This document shows positions 18,465 through 59,859 of a stretch of DNA of 64,000 nt, in pieces. The stretch lies in contig NZ_JADMOP010000002.1 of NCBI RefSeq assembly GCF_015558785.1, positions 44,161 to 108,160 on the forward strand, written 5' to 3'. Positions within the stretch are counted from its first letter, which is position 1; every line of letters starts with the position of its first letter. The notes beneath the pieces are model-generated. The model was not told the DNA's origin and did no database searches. It saw nothing but the letters and a program-made list of their open reading frames with translations. The DNA is from Collinsella aerofaciens (GTDB lineage Bacteria; Actinomycetota; Coriobacteriia; Coriobacteriales; Coriobacteriaceae). The translations under genes and the position numbers were made by a program.

Positions 18465-18803
18465 TTGATAGCTGTTGGGCGCGGACAATATCGTTTGGAC
18501 GGGTATAGCATGGTTCCATGCTCCGCGTTGCTAATTGCGCCGCTGCGTCATTTGTGAAATGGAATGATTGATGATGGAGAGGCGTGAGGTTCTCGGCTTG
18601 CCGCTTTTCACTTGGACTAATGACTGCGGCGGCAGAAAAATGTCCTGGCGAACGACTATCGTATAGAACGCAGCGGTGGTTAGATGGGTCTTCGCGGTTT
18701 GAGTGGTACATGGATTGTCGGATGTGGGAGACGTGAGAAACCCATGGTTTGGGGCAAGGTTGCTATTCTGACGAGTTTATCTCTTCATCCCTGTGGCAAA
18801 ATG
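18465..18803. other. Non-coding interval before the methylase gene
   Basis: No supported gene. Short frames here lack ribosome sites and family features. The stretch presumably contains the methylase promoter. Confidence 0.4.
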
Positions 18804-18818
18804 AGGACATATTGTCCT
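18804..18818 (+). promoter_or_regulatory. Inverted-repeat operator of the EcoRII/SsoII-type methylase
   Basis: AGGACATATTGTCCT is a perfect 6-bp inverted repeat with a 3-bp centre, 23 bp before the methylase ATG. From memory, the autoregulatory site bound by M.SsoII is almost the same 15-mer (central base differs). The N-terminal HTH of this methylase makes the same feedback control likely. Confidence 0.7.
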
Positions 18819-18841
18819 GTTATCTATCCAGAAGGTGCGTC

Positions 18842-20014
18842 ATGCAATTATCAGCAGATGAGGTAAAGGCCAAGAGACAGGAGCTCGGCTTGACTCAGAA
18901 GGAATTCGCCGCTGCCCTAGGCATGGGCCCCAACGGCGAGCGAACGGTGCGCCGCTGGGAGGCAGGCGAAACAAGGCCCACCGCAGCCGAGTCGAAGTAC
19001 ATCTCCACCCTCGGCCATCGCGCCCCCTTTGCACCCGCAGGGGAGGGGAAGCCTGCCTTCACCTTCATCGACCTGTTCGCGGGCATCGGCGGGATCCGCA
19101 TGCCGTTCCAGGAGCTGGGCGGCAGGTGCGTCTTCTCCTGCGAGTGGGATAAGTTTGCGCAGAAGACCTACCGCATGAACTACGGCGAAACCCCGGCGGG
19201 GGACATCCGTGAGGTCGCCGCTTCAGACATCCCCGACTTCGACGTGCTGCTCGCTGGCTTTCCATGCCAGCCGTTCTCGCTTGCGGGTGTGTCCAAGAAG
19301 CGCTCCCTTGGTCGCGCTACGGGCTTCGAAGACAAGACGCAGGGCACGCTCTTCTTCGAGGTTGCACGCATCCTGAACGAGAAGCGCCCGAAGGCGTTCC
19401 TGCTCGAGAACGTGAAGAATCTGATCAGTCACGACAGGGGCAGAACGTTCGACGTCATCATGCAGGTCCTCCAGGACGAGCTCGGTTACCACGTTCACTA
19501 CAAGGTTCTGGACTCCAAGGGTTGGACATGCCAGCACCGCGAGCGCATCTACATTGTTGGCTTTCGCGACGATGTGGAGTTCTCTTGGGACGACCTCGAC
19601 TGCCCGAACAGTGGTCAGAAAGCCGCGGAGATTCTGGAGGAGGATGCGGACGCGAGGTACGTGCTCTCCGACAAGCTGTGGTCATATTTGAAAGCATACA
19701 AGGCCAAGCACGAGGCCGCCGGCAACGGGTTCGGCTACGGTCTTATCACTCCATCGGACACCACGAGGACGCTCTCCGCACGCTATCATAAGGACGGTAG
19801 TGAGATCTTGGTCTCGCGCGGCGAGGGCGAGAACCCCCGTAAGCTGACCCCTAGAGAGTGCGCGCGCTTGCAGGGATTTCCCGACCGGTTCATAATCCCG
19901 GTCTCCGACACACAGGCCTACCGCCAGTTCGGCAATTCGGTGACGGTCCCTGTAATACGGTCGGTGGCCAAGCTCATGATGGGAGCGTGTCAGGATGGAT
20001 TACGGGGCGCTTAG
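18842..20014 (+). CDS. DNA (cytosine-5) methyltransferase with N-terminal HTH, EcoRII/SsoII type
   Basis: 390 aa from ATG 18842 (GAAGG upstream). Residues 1-60 form an XRE-like helix-turn-helix (VKAKRQELGLTQKEFAAAL, then VRRWEAGETRP). The C5-methylase motifs follow in order: FIDLFAGIGGIR (I), AGFPCQPFS with catalytic Cys142 (IV), LLENVKNL (VI), QHRERIYIVGF (VIII), LTPRECARLQGFP (IX) and FGNSVTVPV (X). It should protect the site cut by the EcoRII-type nuclease encoded next (probably CCWGG). The HTH and the operator at 18804 suggest it represses its own transcription. Overlaps the nuclease gene by 20 nt. Confidence 0.92.
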   Translation: MQLSADEVKAKRQELGLTQKEFAAALGMGPNGERTVRRWEAGETRPTAAESKYISTLGHRAPFAPAGEGKPAFTFIDLFAGIGGIRMPFQELGGRCVFSCEWDKFAQKTYRMNYGETPAGDIREVAASDIPDFDVLLAGFPCQPFSLAGVSKKRSLGRATGFEDKTQGTLFFEVARILNEKRPKAFLLENVKNLISHDRGRTFDVIMQVLQDELGYHVHYKVLDSKGWTCQHRERIYIVGFRDDVEFSWDDLDCPNSGQKAAEILEEDADARYVLSDKLWSYLKAYKAKHEAAGNGFGYGLITPSDTTRTLSARYHKDGSEILVSRGEGENPRKLTPRECARLQGFPDRFIIPVSDTQAYRQFGNSVTVPVIRSVAKLMMGACQDGLRGA

Positions 20015-21212
20015 CAGCTACTTCGACGGCGCGGTCTCGAAGACCCTCGCGGACGTCGATATCGACGCAGGTAGGAGTAATCAGCACGAGTTCAACGGCA
20101 CGCTGCCGCTGAGGTCGCTGTTCGGTGACGACGACATCCGCGACATCCGCACCACGTTCGCCTACATGTGCGACGAGGCGGAGCCGGAGATGTGCGACGG
20201 GACCGTGACTTGGTACGATGCGCGCCGCAAACATCCCACGAGAACCGAGTACCGTCTCTACTACAAGGACAACCCCGCCATCAGGCAGGCATCCGCTGGC
20301 GACCTCATGGTGGTCGCCAACTCCGATGACCTCGGGCTGCTCATCATCTTCGCTAAAAAAGGCTCGACCATCGAGTCGCAGCTGAGGTGGCTGTTCGGCT
20401 TCGAGGAGCCCGACCGCTCGGGCTATGCCGTATCAAAGGGCGAGCGCAACCGTATCGGTGCGGTGGCCTCGCGCATCCTCGGCATGATTGGTATCGAGAC
20501 GCGCGCTCCCTTGAGCGCGGATATCTACTTGGACGATATGGTCAAGAGGTTTGGACATACGTTTCCGAAGGGCATCGACTTTACGGAGTACTCCATCTCA
20601 ACCCTTGAAGGTCTCGACTGGGCGGATGACCCCGATCGAAGCCTGCTCGCGTGCTACGAGCGCGAGGAATTGCTGTTCAAGGTGTTTGAGCGCCATCTGC
20701 TTGAGAGAGACCTTGCGCCCTATTTGAACGGCCAGCTCGACGTCGACGGCATTCTGAAGACCACCATGTCGACCTTCCAGCGCAGGAAGTCCCGCGCGGG
20801 CACAGCGTTCGAGCACCAGCTTGAGTTCCTGTTCAAGGGTAGGGGAATCCGATACTCCGCACAGCCCTACACCGAGGGAAAGTCGAAGCCGGACTTCATT
20901 TTTCCGTCAATCGAGTGCTACCGGGATGAGGGGTTCCCCTCCTCGAGCCTTACGATGCTCGGTGCGAAGACGACCATCAAGGAGCGCTGGAGGCAGGTGC
21001 TCGAGGAGGCGAACCGCATCGAGCGTAAGCACCTTATCACGCTGGAGCCCGCCGTGAGCGTGGACTACACGAACGCCATGCGTGACAGCAAGCTCCAGCT
21101 CGTCATCCCCTCCCAGCTTTTCCCCACCTACACGCCTTCACAGCAAGGATGGCTCATGGATGTGGGAGGCTTCTGCGAGATGGTCGAGGAGAGGCAACGG
21201 GTACTTGACTAG
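19995..21212 (+). CDS. EcoRII-type restriction endonuclease
   Basis: 405 aa, essentially the length of EcoRII. The C-terminal catalytic domain is clear: FEHQLEFLFKGRGIRYSAQ, TEGKSKPDFIFPS with Asp300, MLGAKTTIKERWRQVLEEANRI with Lys325, and KHLITLEPAVS. This matches the EcoRII core, with metal-binding Asp and Lys at nearly the same numbering. The N-terminal half is the effector domain that makes EcoRII need two sites. Predicted to cleave before CCWGG unless methylated by the upstream enzyme. The ATG at 19995 lies inside the methylase gene, ensuring coupled expression. Confidence 0.9.
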   Translation: MDYGALSSYFDGAVSKTLADVDIDAGRSNQHEFNGTLPLRSLFGDDDIRDIRTTFAYMCDEAEPEMCDGTVTWYDARRKHPTRTEYRLYYKDNPAIRQASAGDLMVVANSDDLGLLIIFAKKGSTIESQLRWLFGFEEPDRSGYAVSKGERNRIGAVASRILGMIGIETRAPLSADIYLDDMVKRFGHTFPKGIDFTEYSISTLEGLDWADDPDRSLLACYEREELLFKVFERHLLERDLAPYLNGQLDVDGILKTTMSTFQRRKSRAGTAFEHQLEFLFKGRGIRYSAQPYTEGKSKPDFIFPSIECYRDEGFPSSSLTMLGAKTTIKERWRQVLEEANRIERKHLITLEPAVSVDYTNAMRDSKLQLVIPSQLFPTYTPSQQGWLMDVGGFCEMVEERQRVLD

Positions 21213-28501: not shown

Positions 28502-28535
28502 GAGTCATCCTTTCTGTGGGATACGAATAGGGAGA

Positions 28536-28562
28536 GGTGCCCGAACCGGGAATCCGGGCACC
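28536..28562 (-). promoter_or_regulatory. Intercistronic hairpin between lacE1 and lacG1
   Basis: GGTGCCCG (28536-28543) and CGGGCACC (28555-28562) pair in the gap between the two genes. There is no T-run, so mRNA processing or attenuation is likelier than termination. Confidence 0.5.
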
Positions 28563-28576
28563 AACAGAGGGAGGAA

Positions 28577-30334: not shown

Positions 30335-30435
30335 AGAGCTCCTTTGCTACTTGATGCGCGATGCATGTGGATGGAACTGGTCGTCGATGGATGGTCAGGA
30401 CTGCCCGGAAACCTTCCTGCTTAAGGAAGGCATTG

Positions 30436-30479
30436 CGAAATGACAACGTTGTCATTTCGTTAATGACAACGTAAGACAT
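30436..30479. promoter_or_regulatory. LacI1 operators
   Basis: A perfect 24-bp palindrome (30436-30459) has the core ATGACAACGTTGTCAT. A second, weaker site ATGACAACGTAAGACAT is at 30463-30479. Both lie between divergent lacE1 and lacI1. Confidence 0.75.
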
Positions 30480-30609
30480 TTTTGGAAGAGCAACAAGGAT
30501 TTACGGGTGAGTGGTCGATATTGTCCGGTAAACGGTTGATTTGTTAGTCGGGCAGGTAGTGTATGCTAGAACGCAAAAAACAAGTGATTGAGAACCGAGT
30601 GGAGAAGCA

Positions 30610-31620
30610 GTGGCAACGATGGACAAGAAAAATGTCTCGATGAACGATGTGGCGATTGCCGCGGGTGTTTCTCTCAAGACGGTTTCGCGTGTGATCAACG
30701 AGCCCGATAGCGTGCGAGAGTCGACACGCGATAAGGTTCATTCGGCCATGGAGGCGCTCGGGTTTCGAACCAACTTTGCCGCGCGTTCGCTCAAGTTAGG
30801 CCGTTACGGGTGCATCGGCGTCGTGCTGTTTCACTTGTCGGGCGGTGCCGTGGACATGATTGACGGTATCGCCGATGCCGCCGAAGAGCGAGGCTTTGCG
30901 CTCACGATGATCAAAAAGCGGGCGGGGGAGAAGATGACCCTTGCCGAAGCGGCGCGTAGGATGTCGCAGCTTCCCGTCGACGGCATGATCTTCAACCTGC
31001 GTCAGATGGTCGATGACTTTGATACCTTTGAGGCGCCGAAAGACCTCAAGACGGTGATTATCACGCCGATGGAACATCCTAACTGCTCTACCGTTAGTGA
31101 CGATCAAGAGGGTGGTGCGCGCATGGCGTGCGAGCACTTCTTAAATCGCGGGCACAAGAACGTGTATTTCGTCTCTGGTAAGAAAGAGTCGCTGTCGAGC
31201 CAGTGCCGTATGAAAGGTTGGCGTGCGGCACTCGAGGCGCGTGGCATTGAGCCGCCCGAGCCTCTGCAAGGCGATTGGAATGCGGATAGTGGCTATGCCG
31301 CGGGCCTTGCGCTTGCCGATAAACCCGATTGCACGGCGGTCCTCGCTGCTAACGACTGCATGGCAAACGGCGTGATGATGGCTCTGCGTGACAGAGGACT
31401 CAGGGTGCCCGACGACGTGTCCGTGATCGGCTTTGACGACGAACTCTACAAGACGATTCCCAACTCGATTCTGACGTCAGTGAAGTTTCGCCACCGCGAG
31501 CTGGGCGTCCGTGCGCTCAACGAGGTCGTCGCGGGTCTGGAAGCTCCGAGCTCCAGAAGCCGTACGCTCGTCTCGGGCGTGTTGGTCGAGCGTTCCAGCG
31601 TAAAGGACTTGCGGGCGTAG
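30610..31620 (+). CDS. LacI-family repressor, module 1
   Basis: 336 aa from GTG 30610 (GGAG six bases upstream). The HTH MNDVAIAAGVSLKTVSRVINEPDSV and hinge RSLKLGRYGCIGV are followed by a periplasmic-binding-type sensor with DGMIFNL, GDWNADSGYAAG and VSVIGFDD. Recognition positions are Ser-Leu-Lys-Thr, different from its paralogues, matching a different operator word. Divergent from lacE1-lacG1, which it should repress until a galactoside or phospho-galactoside binds. Confidence 0.88.
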   Translation: MATMDKKNVSMNDVAIAAGVSLKTVSRVINEPDSVRESTRDKVHSAMEALGFRTNFAARSLKLGRYGCIGVVLFHLSGGAVDMIDGIADAAEERGFALTMIKKRAGEKMTLAEAARRMSQLPVDGMIFNLRQMVDDFDTFEAPKDLKTVIITPMEHPNCSTVSDDQEGGARMACEHFLNRGHKNVYFVSGKKESLSSQCRMKGWRAALEARGIEPPEPLQGDWNADSGYAAGLALADKPDCTAVLAANDCMANGVMMALRDRGLRVPDDVSVIGFDDELYKTIPNSILTSVKFRHRELGVRALNEVVAGLEAPSSRSRTLVSGVLVERSSVKDLRA

Positions 31621-31643
31621 ACGTGCTCGGCCTATTCCGTTTG

Positions 31644-31860
31644 TCTCAATCTGTAACAGCTAGGACCCAAAAACTCGGCTAGATGTTACGGATCGAGATT
31701 TTTGGCCCGGCTTATTCCGTTTGTCTCGATCTGTAACAACTAGACGGTCAAAAGTGGTCTACATGTTACAGATTGAGATTTTCGGCTTGGCCTGTGCGTT
31801 CATCTCGATCTGTAACAGCTAGGACCGAAAAACTCGGCTAGATGTTACAGATTGAGATGA
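31644..31860. repeat. Palindromic repeat, three copies (c, d, e)
   Basis: Copies at 31644-31698, 31723-31778 and 31801-31860 have TCTCAATCTGTAACA-type left arms and TGTTACAGATTGAGA-type right arms, with a CTAG-flanked variable centre. They fill the gap after lacI1 and before the lacE2 terminator. Confidence 0.85.
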
Positions 31861-31884
31861 ACAGGAGGACGGGTGCGGTCTAAA

Positions 31885-31925
31885 CAAAATGGCCCGCGCA
31901 TCACACATCGATGCACGGGCCATTT
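31885..31925 (-). terminator. Terminator of lacE2
   Basis: On the minus strand ATGGCCCGTGCATCG pairs with TGATGCGCGGGCCAT (with one mismatch) and is followed by TTTTG. Confidence 0.7.
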
Positions 31926-31957
31926 ATTGTCTGCAAGCGGCAGGTGGTGTCAGCGTC

Positions 31958-33718
31958 TTATGCCTCGAGGTTTTCCTCGATCCAGGCGACGGCACCCTTG
32001 GGATCCTTAGTGAGGTCGATGTACTGTTTGCCCTTGGGCGACAGCAGCGTGATGCCCAGGCGGTCGGTGTCGGCCTTCATCTCGTTGTAATAGGTGCGAA
32101 CCTGCGGAGCCAGGACGATGACGTTGTACTGGTCCATGATGGCGTAGTGGCTGCCGTAGGCACCGGCGTTGGCGGTAATGTCGATGCCCAGCTCGTCGGC
32201 GCCTTCCTTAAGCGCGTTGGCGAGCAGTGCAGAGGTGCCGGCGCCAGCGCACAGAACCAGAACCCTCAGATCCTTGCCCTTAAGGGCGGACGGAGCTGCG
32301 GAGGCCTCAGTGGCAGAAGCGGTCTCGACAACAGGAGCCTCAACGGCGGGGGCGGCAGCGGTCTTGACGGCCTTGGTCTCCTCGGCCTCTTCTTCGGCCA
32401 GGGTCTCGGCCTCCTGCTTGCACAGGACGTTGTCGTAGGCCTTGCAGAACGGGTAGTAGATCAAGAAGTCAACGACCAGCAGGACGACAACCAGGACCAG
32501 AGAGATCGGCTGGAAGTTGGTGTCGATGAAGGTGCCGATCGGTCCGGGGAGTGCCCACGGCATGGCATAGATAAAGCCGTTCATGCCCAAAAAGTCGATG
32601 AAGAACTTACCAATGAGGACGTTGGCCACGGGGGCAAACAGGAACGGGATCAGGAAGTACGGGTTGAGGATGATGGGCGCGGCGAACAGCAGCGGCTCGT
32701 TGACGGCGAACATCACGGGCACGACAGAGGCTTTGCCGACGGCCTTGAGCTGCTTGGAGCGCATAAAGAGCAGGAAGATGATCGGGACAATGAACGTGGC
32801 GCCGGTGCCGCCGAGTTCGCCGATGTAGTTACCGAAGTTTTCGGTCAGGGCGAGGGCGGGGTGACCGCCGGCCTGCAGCGTGGCGAGGTTGGTGGTGATG
32901 TTGCCAAACAGCGCGGCGTTGAGGGCAGGCTTAACGACCGAGGGGCCGTGGATGCCCATGAACCAGAACAGCGGGATCATGAACCAGATGAGGGCGAGGC
33001 CGGCGTAGGAATCGGCAGCGGCGAACAGCGGGCTCACCAGCGTGGAGATGACGTTGGCAAACGGGACGGCCAAGCAGGTGCGGCAGATAACGTCGATGAC
33101 GGCGACAAACAGGATGGAGAAGCTGAAGGCGAAGATGTCGCGGAAGTTCTGGGCGATGGCGCCGGGGACTTCTTTGGGCAGCTTGATGGTGATGTCTCGC
33201 TTAATGCAGAAGGCATAGATGTTGACCGTGGCAAATGCGGCGACAAAGGAGCTCAGCAGGCCCTTGGTGCCCATGTTGTCGGTAAAGAACACCGAGACAT
33301 CGGCGCCGTCGATCTTGGCACTCGTCTGGGTAACGGCCAAGATGAGCATAGCGCACATGGCGGCGACCATGGTGCTCGTGGCGTTGATGGCCTTGCCGGC
33401 AGGCATGCGGCGGTTCTTGGAGCCGGTCAGCGCGCTTGCGGTGGTGCCGGCGACCATGATGCCCACGACGCCCATCGTGAAGTTGTAAACCTTGTTGCAG
33501 AAGTTCACGACGTCGACGTTCCACCAGTCGGGCAGCGTAAAGCCGCCGACCGTGGCGACAACGCCCGGCAGGGTCGAAATAAGCAGGAAGACAGAAGAAG
33601 ACAGGATGATGGGCATTGCTGCCAAAAAGCCGTCTTTAATGGCCTGAAGGTAGATGTTCTTAGAGACCTTGTCGAAGTACGGCTGACCTTTCTCCAAGAA
33701 CTTAACGATCGATTCCAT
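31958..33718 (-). CDS. lacE: PTS lactose-family EIICB, module 2
   Basis: 586 aa with the LacE layout: IIC (MGIHGPSVVKPAL, FAVNEPLLFAAPIILNP), a linker rich in Ala and Glu, and IIB with Cys490 in LVLCAGAGTSALL. It is more like module 1 than module 3 in the IIB part (shared AGAYG, IVLAPQVR and KADTDRLGI). In this module it is the second gene, after lacG2, with a 176-nt gap containing a hairpin. Depends on a separate IIA. Substrate within beta-galactosides unknown. Confidence 0.9.
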   Translation of the reverse strand: MESIVKFLEKGQPYFDKVSKNIYLQAIKDGFLAAMPIILSSSVFLLISTLPGVVATVGGFTLPDWWNVDVVNFCNKVYNFTMGVVGIMVAGTTASALTGSKNRRMPAGKAINATSTMVAAMCAMLILAVTQTSAKIDGADVSVFFTDNMGTKGLLSSFVAAFATVNIYAFCIKRDITIKLPKEVPGAIAQNFRDIFAFSFSILFVAVIDVICRTCLAVPFANVISTLVSPLFAAADSYAGLALIWFMIPLFWFMGIHGPSVVKPALNAALFGNITTNLATLQAGGHPALALTENFGNYIGELGGTGATFIVPIIFLLFMRSKQLKAVGKASVVPVMFAVNEPLLFAAPIILNPYFLIPFLFAPVANVLIGKFFIDFLGMNGFIYAMPWALPGPIGTFIDTNFQPISLVLVVVLLVVDFLIYYPFCKAYDNVLCKQEAETLAEEEAEETKAVKTAAAPAVEAPVVETASATEASAAPSALKGKDLRVLVLCAGAGTSALLANALKEGADELGIDITANAGAYGSHYAIMDQYNVIVLAPQVRTYYNEMKADTDRLGITLLSPKGKQYIDLTKDPKGAVAWIEENLEA

Positions 33719-33831
33719 AGTTCACGCTCCTCTTTGCATGAAATCTTAATGGCATGGACGTTGAAAACCTATATGGTCTCCCGCTTGCTAAAAGCCCGGG
33801 TGCAGGCGGGGTCGGTCCCAGGGGGAGAGAG

Positions 33832-33868
33832 GGGAGCGGCTGGGTTTGTATCGCATAGGGCCGCTCCC
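33832..33868 (-). promoter_or_regulatory. Intercistronic hairpin between lacG2 and lacE2
   Basis: GGGAGCGGC (33832-33840) pairs with GCCGCTCCC (33860-33868). It has the same location type as the hairpins at 28536 and 38457 although the sequences differ. Confidence 0.5.
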
Positions 33869-33894
33869 TTCTCGGGGGAAAGCGAGGCGATGCG

Positions 33895-35337
33895 CTACTG
33901 CGCGTCCGCCATAGTGTCGGCGAGCTCCTTGTACCAGAGTGCCGACTGCTTGATGTAGCGTTTTTGCGTGTCGAAGTCGATGTAGAACAGGCCGTAGCGC
34001 TTGTTATAGCCATTGGCCCACGAGAACTGGTCCTGCAGGCTCCAGATAAAGTAGCCCTGGACGTCGACGCCCTCGGCGCGCGCCTGGAGCACCTTCTCCA
34101 TGTGCTGGTCGACAAAGTCGATGCGCTCGGGATCGGCGACGATGCCGTTTGCGTCGGGCTCGGGGTCCTTGTGGCCCAGGCCGTTTTCGGTGATATAGAT
34201 GACGGGGAGGTTGGGATAGGTGGCGCTGATGTGCTTGAGCGTGTCGTAGAGGCCTTGCGGGTAGATGAGCCAATCCCAGTCGGTGGTGGGGATACCCGGC
34301 ATATCGACCTGCTGCCCGACGCCCTTAAACTTAAAGCACGAGGTGCCCTTGTCTCCGGTGCCGTTAAAGCTGTTGGTGGACTCGCCATCGTAGGCGGCGA
34401 TAAACGCCGACTGATAGTAGTTGAGGCCGAACATATCGTTGCGGGGCGCCGCCTTGGCGAGCTCCTCCATGTCGCTGTCCTCAACCGTAAGTGTGGCGTT
34501 GTTGGCACGCAGAATCTCGTTGATGAGTGAGAGGGTGCGCGCGGAGTAGTGACCCAGGAAGGCGCCGTCCATGATGAAGTCGGTGTAGAAGGCGTTGTAC
34601 AGGTCGGCGGCGTGCTGGTCGGCGGGCGAGTCGGTGGCAGGATATGCCGGCGTCAGGACGTTGACCATGCCAATGCGTCCGCCCAGGTGCTCGGTCTCGT
34701 CAAGATCCTTATACAGGTTGACGGCGCGGGCGTGGGCAACGAGCTCGTTGTGCTGGCTCTGGATGCCGCTCGTCACATCAAAGTGATGGTTGGGCGGGAA
34801 GTTGCCTTGGATGTATTGGGAGTGCGAGAGGCTGATGAGCTCGTTGATGGTGAACCAATTCTTGACCTCGCGGAACTCGCGGAAGCAGAACTCGGCATAG
34901 CGCACATAGGCGTCGACGGTCTTGCGGTTGAGCCAGTCGCCCTGGTTGAACAGGGCGGCGGGGGAGTCAAAGTGATGCAGGGACACATAGGGCTCGACGC
35001 CATACTTTTTGCAGCAGGCGAACAGCTCGTGGTAGTGCTTAACGCCCTCGGCGAGGGGTTCGGCATCGTCGCCGTTGGGGAAGATGCGGGTCCAGGCGAT
35101 GGACACACGAATGGCGTTGAGTCCATGCTCGGCAGAAAGGCGGATATCCTCCTCGTAGCGGTTGTAGAAATCACTGGCCGGGTCGGGCAAAAAGCGACCC
35201 TGGGCGACAAGGTAATCGTCCCACATGGTCTTACCCTTGCCTGCCACCTTCGTGGAACCTTCCGTTTGGTACGCGGCGGTTGCGGCGCCCCAAACAAAGC
35301 CCTTCGGCAGCTGCTGTACGCGGTTTAGCAAAGACAT
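33895..35337 (-). CDS. lacG: 6-phospho-beta-galactosidase, GH1, module 2
   Basis: 480 aa from ATG 35337 (GAGAGGA nine bases upstream; ATG 35343 is too close). Acid/base Glu166 sits in WFTINELIS, where Ile replaces the usual Phe of TFNE. The nucleophile is in YITENGLGHKD and the phosphate site in FSWANGYNKRYG, again with the Trp typical of phospho-galactosidases. It is the most divergent of the three GH1 proteins and comes before its permease gene, the reverse of modules 1 and 3. A weak TGTTCG-N4-TGTG element lies upstream at 35361. Confidence 0.88.
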   Translation of the reverse strand: MSLLNRVQQLPKGFVWGAATAAYQTEGSTKVAGKGKTMWDDYLVAQGRFLPDPASDFYNRYEEDIRLSAEHGLNAIRVSIAWTRIFPNGDDAEPLAEGVKHYHELFACCKKYGVEPYVSLHHFDSPAALFNQGDWLNRKTVDAYVRYAEFCFREFREVKNWFTINELISLSHSQYIQGNFPPNHHFDVTSGIQSQHNELVAHARAVNLYKDLDETEHLGGRIGMVNVLTPAYPATDSPADQHAADLYNAFYTDFIMDGAFLGHYSARTLSLINEILRANNATLTVEDSDMEELAKAAPRNDMFGLNYYQSAFIAAYDGESTNSFNGTGDKGTSCFKFKGVGQQVDMPGIPTTDWDWLIYPQGLYDTLKHISATYPNLPVIYITENGLGHKDPEPDANGIVADPERIDFVDQHMEKVLQARAEGVDVQGYFIWSLQDQFSWANGYNKRYGLFYIDFDTQKRYIKQSALWYKELADTMADAQ

Positions 35338-35360
35338 ATGCATACATCCTCTCGTCTCGC

Positions 35361-35379
35361 TGTTCGATATTGTGCGTTT
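35361..35379. promoter_or_regulatory. Weak LacR-type direct repeat near lacG2
   Basis: TGTTCGATATTGTGCGTTT keeps the first TGTTCG, the N4 spacer (ATAT as in the lacF site) and TGT of the second half. It lies 24 bp upstream of the lacG2 start. Confidence 0.35.
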
Positions 35380-35457
35380 GCGCTCAGGAGGCTCCCTGGT
35401 TAGCGTTCAGCGGTGAAAAAGCCCGATAAACACTATCTTAAAATGATTAGAACCAAA

Positions 35458-35627
35458 ATGAGCACGTGAACATTTGACAATGAGCACGTTAACATCCGGC
35501 TGGGATGTATAGAAACAAAACAACTTCAAACAGCTGCGAACGGTTGTATTTGTTCGGTAAGCGGTTTTGATTGACAGAAGTTTTCATGTTGTGGTATATG
35601 GCTCGGGTATCATGAGCACGTTATCAA
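35458..35627. promoter_or_regulatory. LacI2 operators, three copies
   Basis: ATGAGCACGTGAACAT (35458-35473), ATGAGCACGTTAACAT (35480-35495) and ATGAGCACGTTATCAA (35612-35627) lie between divergent lacG2 and lacI2. They are one base from the LacI4 sites at 51.5 kb. Confidence 0.75.
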
Positions 35628-35678
35628 TGTATGTACGATGCGCCATGGGCGCGGGGAATAGTTGGGAAGCAGGTTAGC

Positions 35679-36716
35679 GTGGAAGGCATGGATCAGCAGA
35701 CAAGGAATGGTCGTTCGGCGAGCGCGGCAGAGGTTGCGGCGCTCGCTGGCGTGAGCCGCCAGACTGTGTCTCGCGTGGTCAACGGTATGCCCAACGTGAC
35801 GGAAAAGACGCGCAAGCGTGTGCTGGCCGCCATGGAAGAGCTGGGCTTTCGTCCCAATTTTGCTGGAGCGGCGTTGCGCGGCGGGTCGTATCGTTCTATT
35901 GGCCTGTGCATGTACAACATCACACGTGTCGGTAACCTGGCGACGCTCGAGGGTATCATGCAAGCGGCGCGCGAGCATGATTTTGCCGTCACTATGATCG
36001 AGATGGGCGGCGACAAGCCCTATGCACTTGCCGATGCCTCGCGCCGCATGGTCGAGCGACCCGTCGACGGCATGATTCTCAACATGAACCGCATGGCTCC
36101 CGATTTTGAGGAGTTTGTTCCCCAGCCGGGAGTGCGAACGGTCATCCTGTCCATGTATGCGCATCCGCGCTGCACGACGATCGACTCCGACCAGTATGGT
36201 TCGTGCGAGCTGTTGACCAATTATCTGCTGGAACATGGTCACTCGAATATGCGGTTTGTGGCGGGTCCGGAAAACTCGATTTCCTCGCGTTTTCGTGAGG
36301 CCGGTTGGCGCGATACGCTGGGTCGTGCTCATGTCGATGCCGCTCCGATGCTGCGTGGCGATTGGAGTGCGGACAGTGGGTACGCCATGGGCGAGCGGAT
36401 TGCGGCCGAGGTGCTTGCCGGCGGGTCGCAGACGCCGACTGCCGTGCTTGCGGCAAATGACCAGATGGCGCTGGGCGTTATCGCCGCGCTCGAGAACGCG
36501 GGCCTGTCCGTGCCCGACGACGTGAGCGTGGTTGGTATCGACGACGCACTCGAGGGACTTGTTCCTCACAATCGGCTGACGACGCTGCGATTTGATTTGC
36601 GCGGTGTCGGTAAGCTTGCGTTTGAGGCGGCGATTGGAGAGAGCTCGTCTATCGAGGCGATTCATGTGCCGAGCACGCTGGTCGAACGCTCGACTGTTAG
36701 GGACATACGGGGTTAG
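35679..36716 (+). CDS. LacI-family repressor, module 2
   Basis: 346 aa from GTG 35679 (AGCAGG six bases upstream); ATG 35688 is nearly as good. The HTH AAEVAALAGVSRQTVSRVVNGMPNV is followed by a sensor domain with DGMILNM, GDWSADSGYAMG, AANDQMALG and VSVVGIDDALEG. Closely similar to LacI4 in the sensor (EMGGDK/EMSKTE, YAHPRCTT/YAHPRVTT). It should repress lacG2-lacE2 through the ATGAGCACGTTAACAT sites. Confidence 0.87.
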   Translation: MEGMDQQTRNGRSASAAEVAALAGVSRQTVSRVVNGMPNVTEKTRKRVLAAMEELGFRPNFAGAALRGGSYRSIGLCMYNITRVGNLATLEGIMQAAREHDFAVTMIEMGGDKPYALADASRRMVERPVDGMILNMNRMAPDFEEFVPQPGVRTVILSMYAHPRCTTIDSDQYGSCELLTNYLLEHGHSNMRFVAGPENSISSRFREAGWRDTLGRAHVDAAPMLRGDWSADSGYAMGERIAAEVLAGGSQTPTAVLAANDQMALGVIAALENAGLSVPDDVSVVGIDDALEGLVPHNRLTTLRFDLRGVGKLAFEAAIGESSSIEAIHVPSTLVERSTVRDIRG

Positions 36717-36730
36717 GTCCTACTCCGTCT

Positions 36731-36870
36731 GTCTCGATTTGTAACAGGTAGACGGTCAAAAGCGGGCTACGTGTTACAGATTTAGAATCTTCGGAAAGAG
36801 CAATCCTGTTCGTCTCAATCTGTAACAGCTAGGACCCAAAAACTCGGCTAGTTGTTACAGATTGAGACAA
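36731..36870. repeat. Palindromic repeat, two copies (f, g)
   Basis: Copies at 36731-36786 and 36811-36870 belong to the CTGTAACA/TGTTACAG family. Copy g shares AGCTAGGACCCAAAAACTCG with copy c at 31644, showing close relatedness. Confidence 0.85.
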
Positions 36871-36888
36871 ACGGACCCCGAACCGCCC

Positions 36889-36932
36889 AAAAAGGCCGGG
36901 GGCGGCGCGCCGTGTGACGTGCCGCCCCCGGC
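36889..36932 (-). terminator. Terminator of lacG3
   Basis: GCCGGGGGCGGC (36895-36906) pairs perfectly with GCCGCCCCCGGC (36921-36932), with the minus-strand T-run at 36889-36893. Confidence 0.85.
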
Positions 36933-36992
36933 TGAGAAATGGGGACAGGTTATGTGGGCGGTGCAACTCCGCCAACCGCTCGCCGCAAGCCG

Positions 36993-38432
36993 CTAGTCCA
37001 GACGACGGGTCTGCGCCACGTGCTTATACCAGTAGGCGCTTGCCTTGGGCGTGCGCTTCTGGGTTTCAAAGTCAACGTAGAAGAAGCCGTAACGCTTGTT
37101 GTAGCCATTGGTCCAGGAGAACTGATCCTGCAGGCTCCACAGGAAGTAGCCGCCTACGTTGACGCCAACCTCCATGGCCTTGAGCAACCAGCGCAGGTGC
37201 TGCTCGATGTAGTCGATGCGCGGCTGGTCGTCCACAAAACCGTCCTTGTAGGGGTCCTTGTAGCCCATGCCGTTCTCGGTGATGAAGATCTGCTTGTAGT
37301 TGGGGTAGCGCTGCTTAATGTAGACGAGCAGATCGAACAGGCCCTCGGGATAGATGATCCAGTCCCAGTCGGTGGTGGGGATACCAGGCTTGTTCACATG
37401 CTCGCCAATACCCTTAACGCGCCAGCGGCCGGTGCCCTTCTCGCCCGTACCGTTGTGGTGCAGGTCGTTCTCGCCATCGTAAGCCTTCAAGAAGCGGCAC
37501 TGGTAGTTGTTAACGCCCAGGTAGTCGTTGTAGAGCGCGGCCTCGCGCATAATCTCGAGGTCCTCGTCCAGGATCTCGATGGTGCCGCCTGAGACGGCAG
37601 CCAGGCGGTTGGCGCACTCGAGGGTGTCGGGGGCATAGTCGCCGCGGAAGGTGGCGTCGAGCAGAAACTGGTTCTGCAGCACGTGCTCGTTGTTGGCGGC
37701 TTTGATGTCGGCGGGGTCGTTCTCGTTGAGCGGATACTTAAACTCCAGCGACTGAATGACGCCGATCTTGCCCTTAAAGCCGCCGTTGTGGAAGGCCAGC
37801 ACGGCCTTGGCGTGGGCGAGCATCATGTTGTGCTCGCACTGGAAGGCCTCGGCCAGATGCGCCTTGACGCCACCGGGGAAGGTGCCCTCAATGTAGGTGT
37901 TGGAGGCGTCGGCCCAGATCTCGTTAAAGGTGAACCAGTAGGTTACCTGGTCGGCGTACTCCTTAAAGCAGAAGGTGGCAAAGTCCACAAAGGCGTCGAT
38001 GGTCTCGCGGTTGAGGAAGTCGCCCTTCTCAAAGAGGGGAAGCGGCGTATCGAAGTGATGCAGCGTGACAAACGGCTCAACGTGGTGCTTGTGGCACTCG
38101 GCGAAGAGGTCGTGGTAGAACTGGACACCCTCGGGGTTGATTTCGCCGGTACCGTTGGGGAAGATGCGGCTCCAGGCGATGGAGAGGCGGATGCCGTTGA
38201 TACCGAACTCCTCGCACAGCTCCAAGTCGACGGGGTACTGGTTGTAGAAGTCCGAAGCGGGATCGGGGGAGAAGCGCCCCTGGGCCTCCAGGAAGTCGTC
38301 CCAGGCAACCTTGCCCTTACCGTGGGTGCGGGTCTCGCCCTCTACCTGGTAGGCAGCGGTGGCGCCGCCAAAGACAAAGTCCTCGGGAAACTGCGCGGGC
38401 GGGTTGGTGACGCTAGCAGGGTTAACGGACAT
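36993..38432 (-). CDS. lacG: 6-phospho-beta-galactosidase, GH1, module 3
   Basis: 479 aa. The acid/base Glu171 is in YWFTFNEIW, the nucleophile in FITENGMGYKD, and the phosphate site is FSWTNGYNKRYG. The core FGGATAAYQVEGETRTHGKGK is shared almost word for word with module 1, so modules 1 and 3 are the closest pair. Second gene after lacE3, across a 66-nt gap with a hairpin. Converts a 6-phospho-beta-galactoside to galactose-6-phosphate for LacAB. Confidence 0.9.
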   Translation of the reverse strand: MSVNPASVTNPPAQFPEDFVFGGATAAYQVEGETRTHGKGKVAWDDFLEAQGRFSPDPASDFYNQYPVDLELCEEFGINGIRLSIAWSRIFPNGTGEINPEGVQFYHDLFAECHKHHVEPFVTLHHFDTPLPLFEKGDFLNRETIDAFVDFATFCFKEYADQVTYWFTFNEIWADASNTYIEGTFPGGVKAHLAEAFQCEHNMMLAHAKAVLAFHNGGFKGKIGVIQSLEFKYPLNENDPADIKAANNEHVLQNQFLLDATFRGDYAPDTLECANRLAAVSGGTIEILDEDLEIMREAALYNDYLGVNNYQCRFLKAYDGENDLHHNGTGEKGTGRWRVKGIGEHVNKPGIPTTDWDWIIYPEGLFDLLVYIKQRYPNYKQIFITENGMGYKDPYKDGFVDDQPRIDYIEQHLRWLLKAMEVGVNVGGYFLWSLQDQFSWTNGYNKRYGFFYVDFETQKRTPKASAYWYKHVAQTRRLD

Positions 38433-38456
38433 GATGATCCAATCGTCTAAATCGAA

Positions 38457-38488
38457 GGGCCAGCCGGCTGTGGATGGTCGGCTGGCCC
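38457..38488 (-). promoter_or_regulatory. Intercistronic hairpin between lacE3 and lacG3
   Basis: GGGCCAGCC (38457-38465) pairs with GGCTGGCCC (38480-38488) inside the 66-nt gap, without a T-run. Confidence 0.5.
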
Positions 38489-38498
38489 TGAGCGTTAC

Positions 38499-40265
38499 TT
38501 ACTTCGAAAGCTGCTCGGAGACGAAGGCGAGAGACTTATCGCCGTTCTGGGAGAGCTCGATATACTGCTTGCCACGGCAGGCGACGCACTTGTTGCCCAC
38601 GCGCTCGCAGTCCTTCTGCAGGTCGGCCAGGTAGCTTGCGGCCTGCGGGGCCAGGACGACCAGATCGAAGTCGGGGAGCATGTCCACGTGGTTGCCATAG
38701 GCCTCGGCAGCGGTCTCAAGATCAATGCCGCGCTCCTTGGCGGCCTTGGCCAGCGCGTTGGCGAGCAGGCCCGAGGTTCCGCCACCCTGGCAGAGCACGA
38801 GTACGCGCTTGCCGTTGAGGTCGCTGGCGGTCGTTGCCTCAACGGCGACAGCGGCGGGAGCATCGGTCTTTACAGCCTCGGCAGCGGCGCCGGCGGCAAC
38901 GCTCTTGGCATCGGCCTTGCCCTGGAAAGCGTCGTTGAGCTTGGCGGCCTTCTCGGCGTTCTTGGCGGCGAGCTCCTCCTGGGAGATCTCGGCCTCCTCG
39001 GCGCACTTCTGGGCGTCATAGGCGCGGAAGAACGGATAGTACAGAGCGAAGTCGACGACCAGGATAAGGGCGAGCATCACAAAGGCGAGCGGCTGGAAGC
39101 CCAGGCCCATGATAGTGCCGATGGGGCCGGGGACGGTCCAGGGCAGGGTGTACATAAAGCCGTTCATGCCCAAGAAGTCGATAAAGATCTTGAGGATCCA
39201 GATGTTGGCGATCGGGGCAAAGACAAACGGGACAAAGAAGACGGGGTTGAGCACGATGGGCGCGGCGAACAGCAGCGGCTCGTTGACGGCAAAGCAGACG
39301 GGGACGATGGCGGCCTTACCGACGGCGCGCATCTCCTGAGACTTGGCCAGGAAGCAGAACATAAAGACCAGGACGAGCGTGGCGCCGGTGCCGCCCATGC
39401 AGACGACGAAGTACTGGGCACCCTGGGTCAGGACAGCGGAAGCGTGCTGGCCAGCCTGGAACGCAGCCAGGTTGTCGGTCATGTTGGCAACGAGGGCGGC
39501 GGCGATGGCGGGCTCGACGATCGAGGGGCCGTGGACGCCCACGAACCAGAACAGGCTCATGGCGCCGTAGATCACAGCGAGGCCGATGTAGCCATCGGCA
39601 GCGGTGAACAGGGGCTGGAACACCTGGATGACGCCCTGGGCAAAGCAGAAGCCAAAAGCAGCGCGGAAGGCGATGTCAAAGACCCAAAAGACGGTGATGC
39701 AAACGGAGAAGGGGATGATGTCCTTAAAGGTCTGCGAAATGTTGGGCGGAACCTGCTCGGGCATCTTGACGGTGATGTTGCGCTTAATGAAGAACTTGTA
39801 GATGATGCCAGTCACAAACGCAGCGATGAAAGCGGTCAGCAGGCCCTTGGAACCAAGGTAGGTGGTGTTGAAACCGCTGGCGGCGTCCGTGGCGATCGTG
39901 TCGCTCGAAAGGAGCAAGAAGCCGATGATGGCCGCGCACATGCACGAGATGAAGTTGATCTGGTTGTTCTTGGGCAGATCGCGGTTCTGAGCGTCGGCGA
40001 AGTGCTTGGCCGTGGTGGCGGCGCAGGCGATGGCCAGGATGCCCATGGAGTAGTTGTAGCACTTCCACAGGGCGTTGTTGATGTCATCGGGCCAGTAGAA
40101 ACCCCAGATGTTGGGGACCGAGGCTACCAGGCAAAAGATGGACGAGAAGATGATGATGGGGATGACGGAGATAAAGCCGTCGCGGATCGCCTTGAGGTAC
40201 TTGTTGCGGGCGATCGCGTTGAAAAAGGGCTGGCCCTTTTCGATGATGGCGATGAGTTGCTCCAT
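38499..40265 (-). CDS. lacE: PTS lactose-family EIICB, module 3
   Basis: 588 aa. The IIC part has VGVHGPSIVEPAI and FAVNEPLLFAAPIVLNP. The linker is rich in Ala and Lys, and IIB has Cys492 in LVLCQGGGTSGLL. The IIB is the most divergent of the three (EAYGNHVDMLPDFDLV). Divergent from LacI3, with operators in between. Requires LacF or another IIA. Probably imports a different beta-galactoside from modules 1 and 2. Confidence 0.9.
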   Translation of the reverse strand: MEQLIAIIEKGQPFFNAIARNKYLKAIRDGFISVIPIIIFSSIFCLVASVPNIWGFYWPDDINNALWKCYNYSMGILAIACAATTAKHFADAQNRDLPKNNQINFISCMCAAIIGFLLLSSDTIATDAASGFNTTYLGSKGLLTAFIAAFVTGIIYKFFIKRNITVKMPEQVPPNISQTFKDIIPFSVCITVFWVFDIAFRAAFGFCFAQGVIQVFQPLFTAADGYIGLAVIYGAMSLFWFVGVHGPSIVEPAIAAALVANMTDNLAAFQAGQHASAVLTQGAQYFVVCMGGTGATLVLVFMFCFLAKSQEMRAVGKAAIVPVCFAVNEPLLFAAPIVLNPVFFVPFVFAPIANIWILKIFIDFLGMNGFMYTLPWTVPGPIGTIMGLGFQPLAFVMLALILVVDFALYYPFFRAYDAQKCAEEAEISQEELAAKNAEKAAKLNDAFQGKADAKSVAAGAAAEAVKTDAPAAVAVEATTASDLNGKRVLVLCQGGGTSGLLANALAKAAKERGIDLETAAEAYGNHVDMLPDFDLVVLAPQAASYLADLQKDCERVGNKCVACRGKQYIELSQNGDKSLAFVSEQLSK

Positions 40266-40326
40266 GCAATGCTCCTAAGAGTCGGTGGGTTAGCAACGAT
40301 GGTAGCTTTTGACTTTCGGTTGCCAA

Positions 40327-40609
40327 AATGTTGACGTTGCCATTTTGTGACACAAAAAAAGAAGCGAACCGGTGGTTCCTGTGCCTGCGAACCGTCGATT
40401 CCTTACGCGTAAACGTTTGAGCCGCCCGGTGGCTCTGTGTTTGCACAATGGCAACGTTAACATTTGGTCGACAAAAGCCGTTTGGGGAAGCAAAAATGTC
40501 GGTGAACGGTAGGTTTTGGGTGGTGAGCGTATGGTGGGGGAGGCGTTGGATATACTTGAAGGCGGTAAAAATGACTGCGCAAGGTGCCATCAATGGCATC
40601 GTTGACATA
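40327..40609. promoter_or_regulatory. LacI3 operators, three copies
   Basis: AATGTTGACGTTGCCATT (40327-40344), AATGGCAACGTTAACATT (40447-40464) and AATGGCATCGTTGACATA (40592-40609) are variants of one near-palindrome. They lie between divergent lacE3 and lacI3. Confidence 0.75.
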
Positions 40610-40622
40610 GAAAGATCGACCT

Positions 40623-41627
40623 ATGGCCGCTGTTAAAAAATCGGTATCCGTTAAGGATGTGGCGCGTCTCGCGGGCGTCTCGGAGCAGACGGTCTCGCGC
40701 ACCGTGCACGATTCGCCCAGCGTGCGCCCCGAGACCAAGGAACGCGTGCGTGCCGCCATGCGCGAGCTGGGGTATCGCCCAAACTTTGCCGGTCGATCGC
40801 TGCGCCGCGGTAAGTTTAAGACCGTCGGCGTCGCCATGTTCAACATTACCGGCACCGGCAACCTCGACCGTATGGAGGGCTTTGCCGCCGCGGCCGACAA
40901 ACACGGCTATGCCATCACCCTCACTAAAGTAGACGGGCATCCGTATACCCTCGAGAGCGCATCGTCACGCATGAGCGCACTGCCAGTGGACGGTATGGTT
41001 GTGATCATGAATCGCATGCCGGCGGACTTTGGCACCTTCGAGCCGCTACCTGGCATGCAGACGGTGCTCGTTACCATGCTGGAGCACCCGCTCTGTTCAA
41101 CGGTCGATAACGACCAGTTCGATTGCTCGCGCCAGGTGGTCGAGTATTTGCTGGGGAGGGGGCACAAGACTGTGCACTTTATCTCATGCCCCGAGCGCTC
41201 GCTTTCGGGCATGCGGCGCGAGGAAGGCTGGCGCGAGACATTGCGCGCGCATGGCATTGAGCCCCCGCAGCTCGTGCGCGGCGACTGGACGGCACAGAGC
41301 GGGTATGCCGCAGGCCAGGCTCTGGCGGATGATCCGACCTGCACGGCCATTTATGCCTCCAACGATGCCATGGCATATGGCTGTATCCGTGGGCTCGAGT
41401 CGCGCGGGAAGTGCGTGCCCCAGGACGTGAGCGTGGCGGGTGTTGACGATAGTCTGGGCGATATCGTGCCCGACCGTCGCCTGACCACGGTGCGCTTTGA
41501 CAACAAGCGCGTCGGCATGTGGGCGGTCGACAAGATTGCCGGCGCCGATGGGGGTGCGTCTGGCGTGGAGCACATGCTGATCCCCGGTGTGCTCGTAGAG
41601 GGCGATACGGTGCGCGATTTGCGTTAG
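40623..41627 (+). CDS. LacI-family repressor, module 3
   Basis: 334 aa. The HTH VKDVARLAGVSEQTVSRTVHDSPSV has Ser-Glu-Gln-Thr at the recognition positions. The sensor has DGMVVIM, GDWTAQSGYAAG and VSVAGVDDSLGD. ATG 40623 directly follows AGATCGACCT, a poor ribosome site, and the third operator copy ends only 14 bp upstream, so strong autoregulation is likely. It should control lacE3-lacG3. Confidence 0.87.
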   Translation: MAAVKKSVSVKDVARLAGVSEQTVSRTVHDSPSVRPETKERVRAAMRELGYRPNFAGRSLRRGKFKTVGVAMFNITGTGNLDRMEGFAAAADKHGYAITLTKVDGHPYTLESASSRMSALPVDGMVVIMNRMPADFGTFEPLPGMQTVLVTMLEHPLCSTVDNDQFDCSRQVVEYLLGRGHKTVHFISCPERSLSGMRREEGWRETLRAHGIEPPQLVRGDWTAQSGYAAGQALADDPTCTAIYASNDAMAYGCIRGLESRGKCVPQDVSVAGVDDSLGDIVPDRRLTTVRFDNKRVGMWAVDKIAGADGGASGVEHMLIPGVLVEGDTVRDLR

Positions 41628-58721: not shown

Positions 58722-59711
58722 CTAGCGCTGCGGTGCGGCAGCGCGTACTTGTTCGATGACCTTTTCCATCGTGGCGTCGATGCGGTCCTTTTTGAGTTCG
58801 CATTCCCAGATGGTTATGGGCGTCCAGCCCATTTCGGTGAGCGCTGCCACGGCGGCACGGTCGCGCTCGACGTTGCGACGGAACTTTGCCTCCCAAAACT
58901 CGACATTGCGCTTGGGCTGACTTGGGTTGCATTTGGGGCAGCGGTGCCAAAAGCAGCCGTTGACGAAGATGGCGATCTTGCGGCCGGGGAAGGCGATGTC
59001 GGGCTTGCCGGGAACCTTCCATTCCAAGCGGTAACCCGTAAGGCCCGCTGCGCGCAGGTGCTGTCGTACGAGCAGCTCGGGCTTGGTGTTGGCGCGCTTG
59101 TTACCCTTCATGGACTTTTTGATGGCGGCGCGACGGCGCACCAGTTCACGCTCGTCGGCGGAAAGGTCTGAGGTATCGATGCCGTCGAGCAGACCTGGTT
59201 TGGGGCGTTTTTTGCTACGGCGCTTAGGTGCGCGTTTGGGCTTGGAAGCGGGCTCGTCGGTCGTGGCGGCCATGGCATCTTTGGCAGTGCTGTTGGCCTC
59301 AAGCCGATCTTCCTTTAACTCAATCAGAGCATCAATGAGCCCCTTGTCGGCGGGCATCCATTCCACCGTGGCAAGCGAGGTGCGCGGAATCCAGCGGATA
59401 TCAAGCTGGCGGTCGTGTTTCTGGGGCTCGCCAGACTCTTTAGCCAGTGAGCAGTAGTAGCACTCCATGGAGAGATGGAAATCGGGGTAGTCGTACTCAA
59501 CGGTATAGAAATCGCGCAGGTTGGTGACTTTTACCTGCAGCTCTTCCATGAGCTCGCGGCGCACGGCGTCTTCGGGTGTCTCGCCGTGCATGAGCTTGCC
59601 GCCGGGAAACTCCCAAAGTCCCTGCATGTCGCCGTAGCCGCGCTGCACGGCAAGCAGCTCGTCAGATCCTTCCTTGCGAATGATCCCAGCGGCAACATGA
59701 ACAGTCTTCAA
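58722..59711 (-). CDS. Nudix hydrolase-Vsr endonuclease fusion
   Basis: 329 aa from TTG 59711 (AGAGGA upstream); the open frame continues into the ABC gene region but nothing supports it. Residues 1-135 are a MutT-type Nudix domain with the Nudix box at 37-59 (PGGKLMHGETPEDAVRRELMEEL). A basic linker (about 140-175, KPKRAPKRRSKKRPKP) leads to a complete Vsr domain: NTKPELLVRQHLRAAG, GYRLEWKVPGKPDIAF with metal-binding Asp238, NGCFWHRCPKC and WECELKKDRI, including the zinc Cys/His set. Vsr nicks T:G mismatches left by deamination of 5-methylcytosine. The fusion would couple nucleotide-pool cleaning with mismatch repair. Confidence 0.88.
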   Translation of the reverse strand: MKTVHVAAGIIRKEGSDELLAVQRGYGDMQGLWEFPGGKLMHGETPEDAVRRELMEELQVKVTNLRDFYTVEYDYPDFHLSMECYYCSLAKESGEPQKHDRQLDIRWIPRTSLATVEWMPADKGLIDALIELKEDRLEANSTAKDAMAATTDEPASKPKRAPKRRSKKRPKPGLLDGIDTSDLSADERELVRRRAAIKKSMKGNKRANTKPELLVRQHLRAAGLTGYRLEWKVPGKPDIAFPGRKIAIFVNGCFWHRCPKCNPSQPKRNVEFWEAKFRRNVERDRAAVAALTEMGWTPITIWECELKKDRIDATMEKVIEQVRAAAPQR

Positions 59712-59859
59712 CAGGAGTCCTCTCTCAACATCAACACGCGGCAGGGTAGCTACCCGTACCTTACACAACGGTAAGGCAAGCGTAAGCCATATCGATGGTA
59801 GCCGACTCGTCTTCTTGCGACTATAGATGCCGTAGACTAATCGCAAAAAAGGACTCGGT

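Follow-up and report, generated by a model that had tools for sequence, protein, structure and literature searches.

In E. coli, the Nudix hydrolase MutT acts on 8-oxo-dGTP, and structural work has shown that its residue N119 reads the 8-oxoguanine. A Nudix-like domain does not need to be an enzyme, as the C-terminal domain of MutY is a precedent for a non-catalytic lesion reader. For the Bacteroides fragilis Nudix hydrolase Q5LBB1 (PDB 3GWY), hydrolysis of 5-Me-dCTP with a kcat/Km of 4.8e6 per M per s has been reported, and with 5-Me-CTP, 5-Me-dCTP and 5-hydroxymethyl-dCTP the enzyme reaches about 5e6 per M per s (PMC5158307). Among the Vsr endonucleases, V.NgoAXIII cuts T:G mispairs in all contexts (PMC6116569). 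In Actinobacteria without MutS and MutL, NucS/EndoMS is a mismatch endonuclease, and all analysed Coriobacteriia lack both NucS and MutS-MutL (PMC5290159).

In Collinsella aerofaciens, a Nudix hydrolase and a Vsr endonuclease are encoded by one gene. The gene lies in the window, by which we mean the whole stretch of 64,000 nucleotides that was analysed, and its features are compiled in Table 1 together with those of a restriction-modification system of the same window.

Table 1. Positions of the fused gene, its parts, and the restriction-modification system in the window
Feature	Position	Strand	Remarks
Nudix-Vsr fusion gene	58722..59711	-	329 aa; TTG start at 59711; TAG stop at 58722-58724
Shine-Dalgarno AGAGGA (GAGAGAGGACTCCTG-TTG)	59718..59723	-	5' of the TTG start; kept across the C. 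aerofaciens group
Nudix hydrolase domain, residues 1-137	59301..59711	-	Pfam NUDIX; AF2 pLDDT about 93
Nudix box, residues 38-60	59532..59600	-	R52, E53, E56 and E57 identical in every aligned fused copy
Basic linker, residues 138-184	59160..59300	-	partly disordered in the model
Vsr mismatch endonuclease domain, residues 185-329	58725..59159	-	TIGR00632 above cut-off; structural match to 1cw0
Vsr core motif FVNGCFWHRCPKC, residues 249-261	58929..58967	-	alignment to E. coli Vsr
Dcm/EcoRII-type C5-cytosine methylase, N-terminal HTH	18749..20014	+	best PDB matches 3lx6 and 3me5
EcoRII-like restriction endonuclease, EcoRII-C domain	19995..21212	+	

A single reading frame for two domains

A preceding sequence-only reading placed the gene correctly at 58722-59711 but left its minus strand unstated. 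Its claim of a 329-aa frame that joins Nudix and Vsr holds true, as frame, domain matches and conservation agree on a real, single-chain fusion, and as both domains are fused without an internal stop in 42 of 43 Collinsella genomes, chance is excluded. The TTG start is preceded by a good Shine-Dalgarno sequence; in relatives outside the C. aerofaciens group, the start codon at the same site is often ATG or GTG. Also the absence of a stop or a ribosome site between the domains has been corroborated: the frame is open in relatives, and none of the internal start candidates (codons 147, 191 and 201) is accompanied by a Shine-Dalgarno sequence. In a comparison of 12 close relatives, third codon positions carry most of the substitutions in Nudix, linker and Vsr, and the entire frame thus looks translated as a single piece. 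The rough dN/dS values from these relatives are 0.03 for the Nudix domain, 0.21 for the linker and 0.02 for the Vsr domain, and both domains are under strong purifying selection. Two separate genes or a frameshift are ruled out by the conservation of the frame, the codon-position bias and the lack of internal ribosome sites, and a single polypeptide is presumably produced. In a public Collinsella record, the gene is annotated merely as 'DNA mismatch endonuclease Vsr'.

Relatives have linkers of about 1 to 109 aa, with Nudix and Vsr remaining in frame throughout. AF2 models of long- and short-linker members reach a pTM of about 0.6 and do not fix the orientation of the domains relative to each other. 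With such a flexible tether between them, Nudix and Vsr probably act independently of each other at their active sites.

The Vsr domain

The Vsr domain is recognised by Pfam (PF03852, residues 197-257, 3.1e-17; 62.6 bits, cut-off 27) and by the NCBIfam model TIGR00632 (109.1 bits, cut-off 97.85). Its AF2 model aligns to the E. coli Vsr-DNA structure 1cw0 with a Z score of 15.3 and an rmsd of 2.1 A over 119 residues (VIA-align); the Vsr half accounts for two rows among the structural matches listed, which are otherwise matches of the Nudix domain. The equivalents of E. coli M14, E25, D51, W68, H69, W86, N93 and D97 are invariant in all 51 distinct fused copies, and the position of E. coli residue 67 is occupied by Phe in 46 and by Tyr in five of them. 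According to the alignment with E. coli Vsr, the motif FVNGCFWHRCPKC contains the intercalating F/W, the catalytic His (E. coli H69) and zinc cysteines. H64 of E. coli Vsr is an Asn in the fused protein, as it is in 36 of 60 Bacteroidales Vsr proteins, and T63 is a Val, which is common across the wider Vsr family. The catalytic core of the Vsr domain is therefore complete, as had been supposed, given the conserved key residues, the score above the TIGR00632 cut-off and the match to the Vsr fold. With respect to the T:G specificity, a broad one is just as possible as one for CCWGG.

The Nudix domain and its substrate

The Nudix domain matches the Pfam NUDIX family at residues 5-123 (4.5e-19). 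Its Nudix box, G38-x5-E44-x7-R52E53-U-x-E56E57, had been described as complete, which is correct for the catalytic residues R52, E53, E56 and E57, but the final Gly of the textbook motif GX5EX7REUXEEXGU is replaced by Gln. None of the 51 fused copies deviates at R52, E53 or E57. Most fused copies have Arg in the position of the MutT metal ligand E98 and an Asp at the residue before it, and a few copies retain the Glu. As the residues of the box are invariant but E98 is mostly Arg, it is likely, though not certain, that the Nudix half is catalytically active.

Overall similarity does not set 3GWY apart from MutT for the Nudix half. Its model gives VIA-align Z scores of 17.3 with 3r03, 16.5 with MutT (3a6t), 15.9 with MutT2 in complex with 5mdCTP (5zro) and 15.6 with 3gwy, and the structure scores of MutT and 3GWY are regarded as tied. 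The best PDB sequence match is 3GWY, with 63.1 bits and thus a tie with MutT (62.4 bits), and in a Nudix tree with long reference branches MutT is no farther away than 3GWY. The equivalog cut-offs are reached neither for MutT (TIGR00586, 85.5 versus 97.9 bits; PRK10776, 85.2 versus 148 bits) nor for NudG (PRK10546, 64 versus 156 bits). At the position of MutT N119, there is an Asp in the window copy, in 49 of the 51 fused copies and in all 15 Vsr-neighbouring Nudix copies, and this Asp is also present in NudG, MutT2 and 3GWY. Because of the Asp at this position and the missed MutT cut-offs, 8-oxo-dGTP, which the sequence-only reading had suggested, is not the best-supported substrate. The Asp and the gene context described below would rather be compatible with a 3GWY-like preference for 5-substituted (d)CTP, and for 5-methyl-dCTP as the substrate of the Nudix half the chances appear a little better than even.

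Distribution of the fusion in Coriobacteriaceae

When the domain pair was searched beyond the window, the fusion was found not only in nearly all Collinsella genomes (42 of 43) but also in four sister genera of the Coriobacteriaceae (g2, g3, g4 and g6), and in the genus g5 Vsr stands alone. The single Collinsella genome without Vsr and without the fusion, G024, has kept only a Nudix relative, so that the role of Nudix may be separate. In G024, this Nudix relative shares an open frame with a GFO/IDH/MocA oxidoreductase (L246:1818-3602), which may be a second fusion or merely a long ORF. Genome G395 has a stand-alone Nudix gene, placed near the sister of the fused clade, that diverges from an adjoining Vsr gene (L207:401-2034), possibly a pre-fusion arrangement. 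A mobile or phage-borne fusion has been considered and rejected, as no fused copy turned up in viral contigs, where matches span only one half. Among the matches in the plasmid collection, only one spans most of the gene, and it belongs to a 0.9 Mb Collinsella record.

Mismatch repair in Coriobacteriales

MutL was found in none of 120 Coriobacteriales genomes, and a MutS_I signal in only one of them, with two matches within one odd 3249-aa frame (G006:C11:111334-113181). Full-length NucS was likewise absent from the 120 genomes, which gave only weak matches to stretches of about 40-60 residues. These counts are in line with what has been published for the class Coriobacteriia (PMC5290159). Vsr, in contrast, is nearly core in the order: it is encoded in 182 of 247 Coriobacteriales genomes (74%), or in 164 of the 201 genomes of good quality. 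A sample of 295 Bacteroidales genomes has it in only 71, and among other Actinomycetota its frequency is roughly a fifth. With no MutL or NucS, MutS in a single genome and yet such a frequent Vsr, Vsr may be the main mismatch endonuclease of Coriobacteriales and may perform much of their mismatch repair. The NucS study had asked what substitutes for mismatch repair in species with neither pathway, such as Coriobacteriia (PMC5290159), and Vsr is a concrete candidate for this role.

Base composition was compared in an exploratory manner (samples L428-L447, L178-L207 and G024/G372). In one Coriobacteriales family, the GC content is 43-52% in Vsr-less and 56-73% in Vsr-bearing genomes. Kinship and genome size confound this difference, and in two other families the pattern does not hold. 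The Vsr-less Collinsella genome G024 fits the low-GC pattern with 48.5%, genome reduction being an obvious confounder. The tetranucleotide signature of very short patch repair (low CTAG, high CCAG) did not clearly differ between genomes with and without Vsr. In G024, which has a C5-methylase, CCWGG is depleted (0.60), and the corresponding value in the window is 1.0.

Relation to C5-methylases

An EcoRII/Dcm-type methylase had been reported for the window and is indeed encoded there, 38 kb away from the fusion gene. It is a possible, but not an obligate, source of 5mC for the fused protein. The idea that the fusion is tied to this methylase did not hold, as a C5-methylase is missing altogether from 14 of the 43 Collinsella genomes, all of which carry the fusion, and an obligate partnership with the EcoRII-type system of the window is ruled out for the same reason. 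At the level of genomes, Vsr and C5-methylases do co-occur: among the 247 Coriobacteriales genomes, 129 have both, 53 only Vsr, 14 only a methylase and 51 neither, corresponding to an odds ratio of 8.9 that is uncorrected for kinship. Taking the methylase-less genomes and this co-occurrence together, the fusion gene has the appearance of a core gene at the service of whichever C5-methylases are gained and lost, and not of a partner to one system.

Two other regions of the window may be mentioned. The EcoRII-type system is adjoined by a gene for a 574-aa protein with a DUF2326 domain (21574-23298), and the region 27080-41627 contains, by inspection of the translations by eye, three successive and apparently paralogous cassettes with beta-glucosidase-like, PTS permease-like and LacI-type regulator genes.

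Nudix-Vsr pairs in other bacteria

A fused Nudix-Vsr protein of 306 aa is also encoded in a Prevotella genome (L057). In the Nudix tree, its Nudix half groups with Nudix genes of Bacteroidales and apart from the Collinsella clade, which requires at least two fusion events, and judged by this tree the fusion arose independently at least twice.

With the entire fusion protein as query, several Bacteroidales loci with separate genes were retrieved (L102, L111, L048, L082). One of them has the order methylase-endonuclease-Nudix-Vsr with an EcoRII-type endonuclease (L102), the type of system also present in the window, and another one the order methylase-endonuclease-Vsr-Nudix (L111). In L048, Nudix and Vsr lie a few genes past a methylase and an endonuclease, and in L082 Vsr and Nudix are side by side. 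Since these loci had been chosen by their similarity to the fusion, a second Bacteroidales sample was drawn by Vsr alone, and only one of its 50 loci had a Nudix box at a distance of about 2 kb or less from Vsr. A Bacteroidales-wide rule of Nudix-Vsr adjacency is thereby ruled out; most of the genomes in this sample have no fusion-type Nudix, and the link holds in those that do have such a Nudix gene. Of ten close Nudix copies (at least 57% identity, from Vsr-bearing Bacteroidales genomes, with G045 left out), four have a Vsr gene at a distance of 1.7-6.5 kb (one each in G265 and G167 and two in G276). The chance of a close Nudix gene being less than 7 kb from Vsr is about 0.6% each, which gives a P of about 3e-7 that weakens if the two copies in G276 represent one event. 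Both Nudix genes of G276 have C5-methylases as near neighbours.

Some further arrangements were observed. In a Victivallales genome (L110:3842-4842, L143, L147), Vsr overlaps with a Nudix gene from another subfamily at two loci, one of which is near a C5-methylase. A Bacteroidales frame of 529 aa fuses Vsr to a C5-methylase (L210:769-2355), and in three Bacteroidales genomes a fusion-type Nudix gene without a nearby Vsr directly adjoins the gene of a 703-710-aa protein (L255-L257).

Possible functions of the fused protein

The explanation that we favour, with a chance just short of even, is that of a bifunctional protein for 5-methylcytosine hygiene and T:G repair. The Vsr half would nick 5' of the T at T:G mispairs that result from the deamination of 5mC, possibly in many sequence contexts as known from V.NgoAXIII, and short-patch resynthesis after the nick would restore the C:G pair. 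The Nudix half would hydrolyse 5-methyl-dCTP, probably also related dCTP derivatives and possibly 8-oxo-dGTP, to the monophosphate, and the removal of 5-methyl-dCTP would keep 5mC from degraded DNA out of random sites and out of the repair patches. We infer that there is a benefit in coupling Nudix to Vsr, and the tether would then couple the expression of pool cleaning and mismatch nicking rather than fix a geometry. The hygiene function is supported by the conservation of the fusion, the invariant residues of both domains and the Asp at the N119 position, as well as by the 5-Me-dCTP activity of 3GWY, the methylase operons of Bacteroidales, the at least two fusion events, the above-chance proximity of close Nudix copies to Vsr in Bacteroidales and the co-occurrence of Vsr with methylases. 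It is weakened by the tie of 3GWY and MutT in scores, folds and tree, by the Arg at the E98 position of most fused copies, by the 14 genomes with fusion but no methylase, by the lone Nudix of G024 and by the single adjacency among 50 Bacteroidales loci. The recurrent pairing, twice in one protein and several times beside a restriction-modification system, may point to a little-noticed cost of 5mC in bacteria, which is the recycled 5-methyl-dCTP.

The methylase-less genomes, as well as the lack of MutL and full-length NucS and the near-absence of MutS in a group in which Vsr is so frequent, would also agree with a general mutation avoidance, in which the MutT function of the cell on 8-oxo-dGTP rests with the Nudix half, the Vsr half is a broad T:G endonuclease that replaces mismatch repair, and 5mC is incidental. 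This is a widened form of the sequence-only reading, and it fits the context-independent cleavage by V.NgoAXIII (PMC6116569), the score of the fused Nudix near the MutT equivalog cut-off, and the lower GC content of Vsr-less genomes in one family. However, Asn119 of MutT is changed to Asp, the operon partners in Bacteroidales are C5-methylases, Vsr tracks the presence of C5-methylases, and the GC pattern is confounded and fails in two families; we regard this alternative as somewhat unlikely. In a related scenario, Vsr is the resident mismatch endonuclease of Coriobacteriia, to which the Coriobacteriaceae have added a Nudix half that cleans 5-methyl-dCTP or other damaged dNTPs, and this we hold to be unlikely.

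A neutral fusion of two adjoining housekeeping genes without any functional coupling would be in agreement with the variable linker and the lack of a fixed domain contact, and with the persistence of a lone Nudix in the Vsr-less G024, but then the pairing would hardly recur in unrelated lineages, with two independent fusions and a linkage above chance, and such neutrality is thus improbable. The loss of the E98-equivalent metal ligand in most fused copies, together with the MutY precedent, brings up the idea that the Nudix half is a non-catalytic reader of lesions or DNA that guides the Vsr nuclease to damage. A mere reader would not need to retain a Nudix box, though, and R52, E53, E56 and E57 are invariant; as also the Bacteroidales partner is a separate and complete Nudix enzyme, a reader function is very improbable.

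Comparison with known systems

Each half of the protein belongs to a known family. The combination in one protein had been judged unusual, which agrees with the open-licence literature that was searched: we came across no paper that links Vsr and Nudix, and no description of this pair of domains, of how it recurs, of its place among the core genes or of its occurrence in a clade that lacks mismatch repair.

E. coli MutT (8-oxo-dGTP) and NudG/Orf135 (5-methyl-dCTP, CTP) share the Nudix fold and box with the fused Nudix domain, which differs from them in that it misses both equivalog cut-offs and, unlike MutT, has an Asp in place of N119. The 5-methyl-(d)CTP pyrophosphatase of B. fragilis has this Asp as well and belongs with the Vsr-linked Nudix genes of Bacteroidales (90 bits to the Nudix of L102, versus 56 for MutT), but it is a stand-alone enzyme, is only about 29-30% identical to the fused Nudix domain, and retains the E98 ligand. 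NucS/EndoMS is, like the Vsr described here, a mismatch endonuclease of Actinobacteria without MutS/MutL (PMC5290159), but it belongs to another protein family and has no full-length match in the 120 Coriobacteriales genomes. Caulobacter VsrA (PMC12907096) is also a chromosomal Vsr that is unlinked to its methylase gene, but no Nudix domain is described for it, and its organism has MutS/MutL. E. coli Vsr (TIGR00632/PF03852; 1cw0, 1vsr) has the same fold, catalytic Asp/His/Asp/Glu, intercalating aromatics and zinc cysteines. A co-occurrence with C5-methylases is shared at the level of genomes, with the 14 methylase-less Collinsella genomes as exceptions. The fused protein deviates from E. coli Vsr by T63 to Val, H64 to Asn and a CxxC zinc motif, all of which are common in the wider family, by its Nudix domain, and in that it is encoded by a core gene of the genus and not within a dcm operon.
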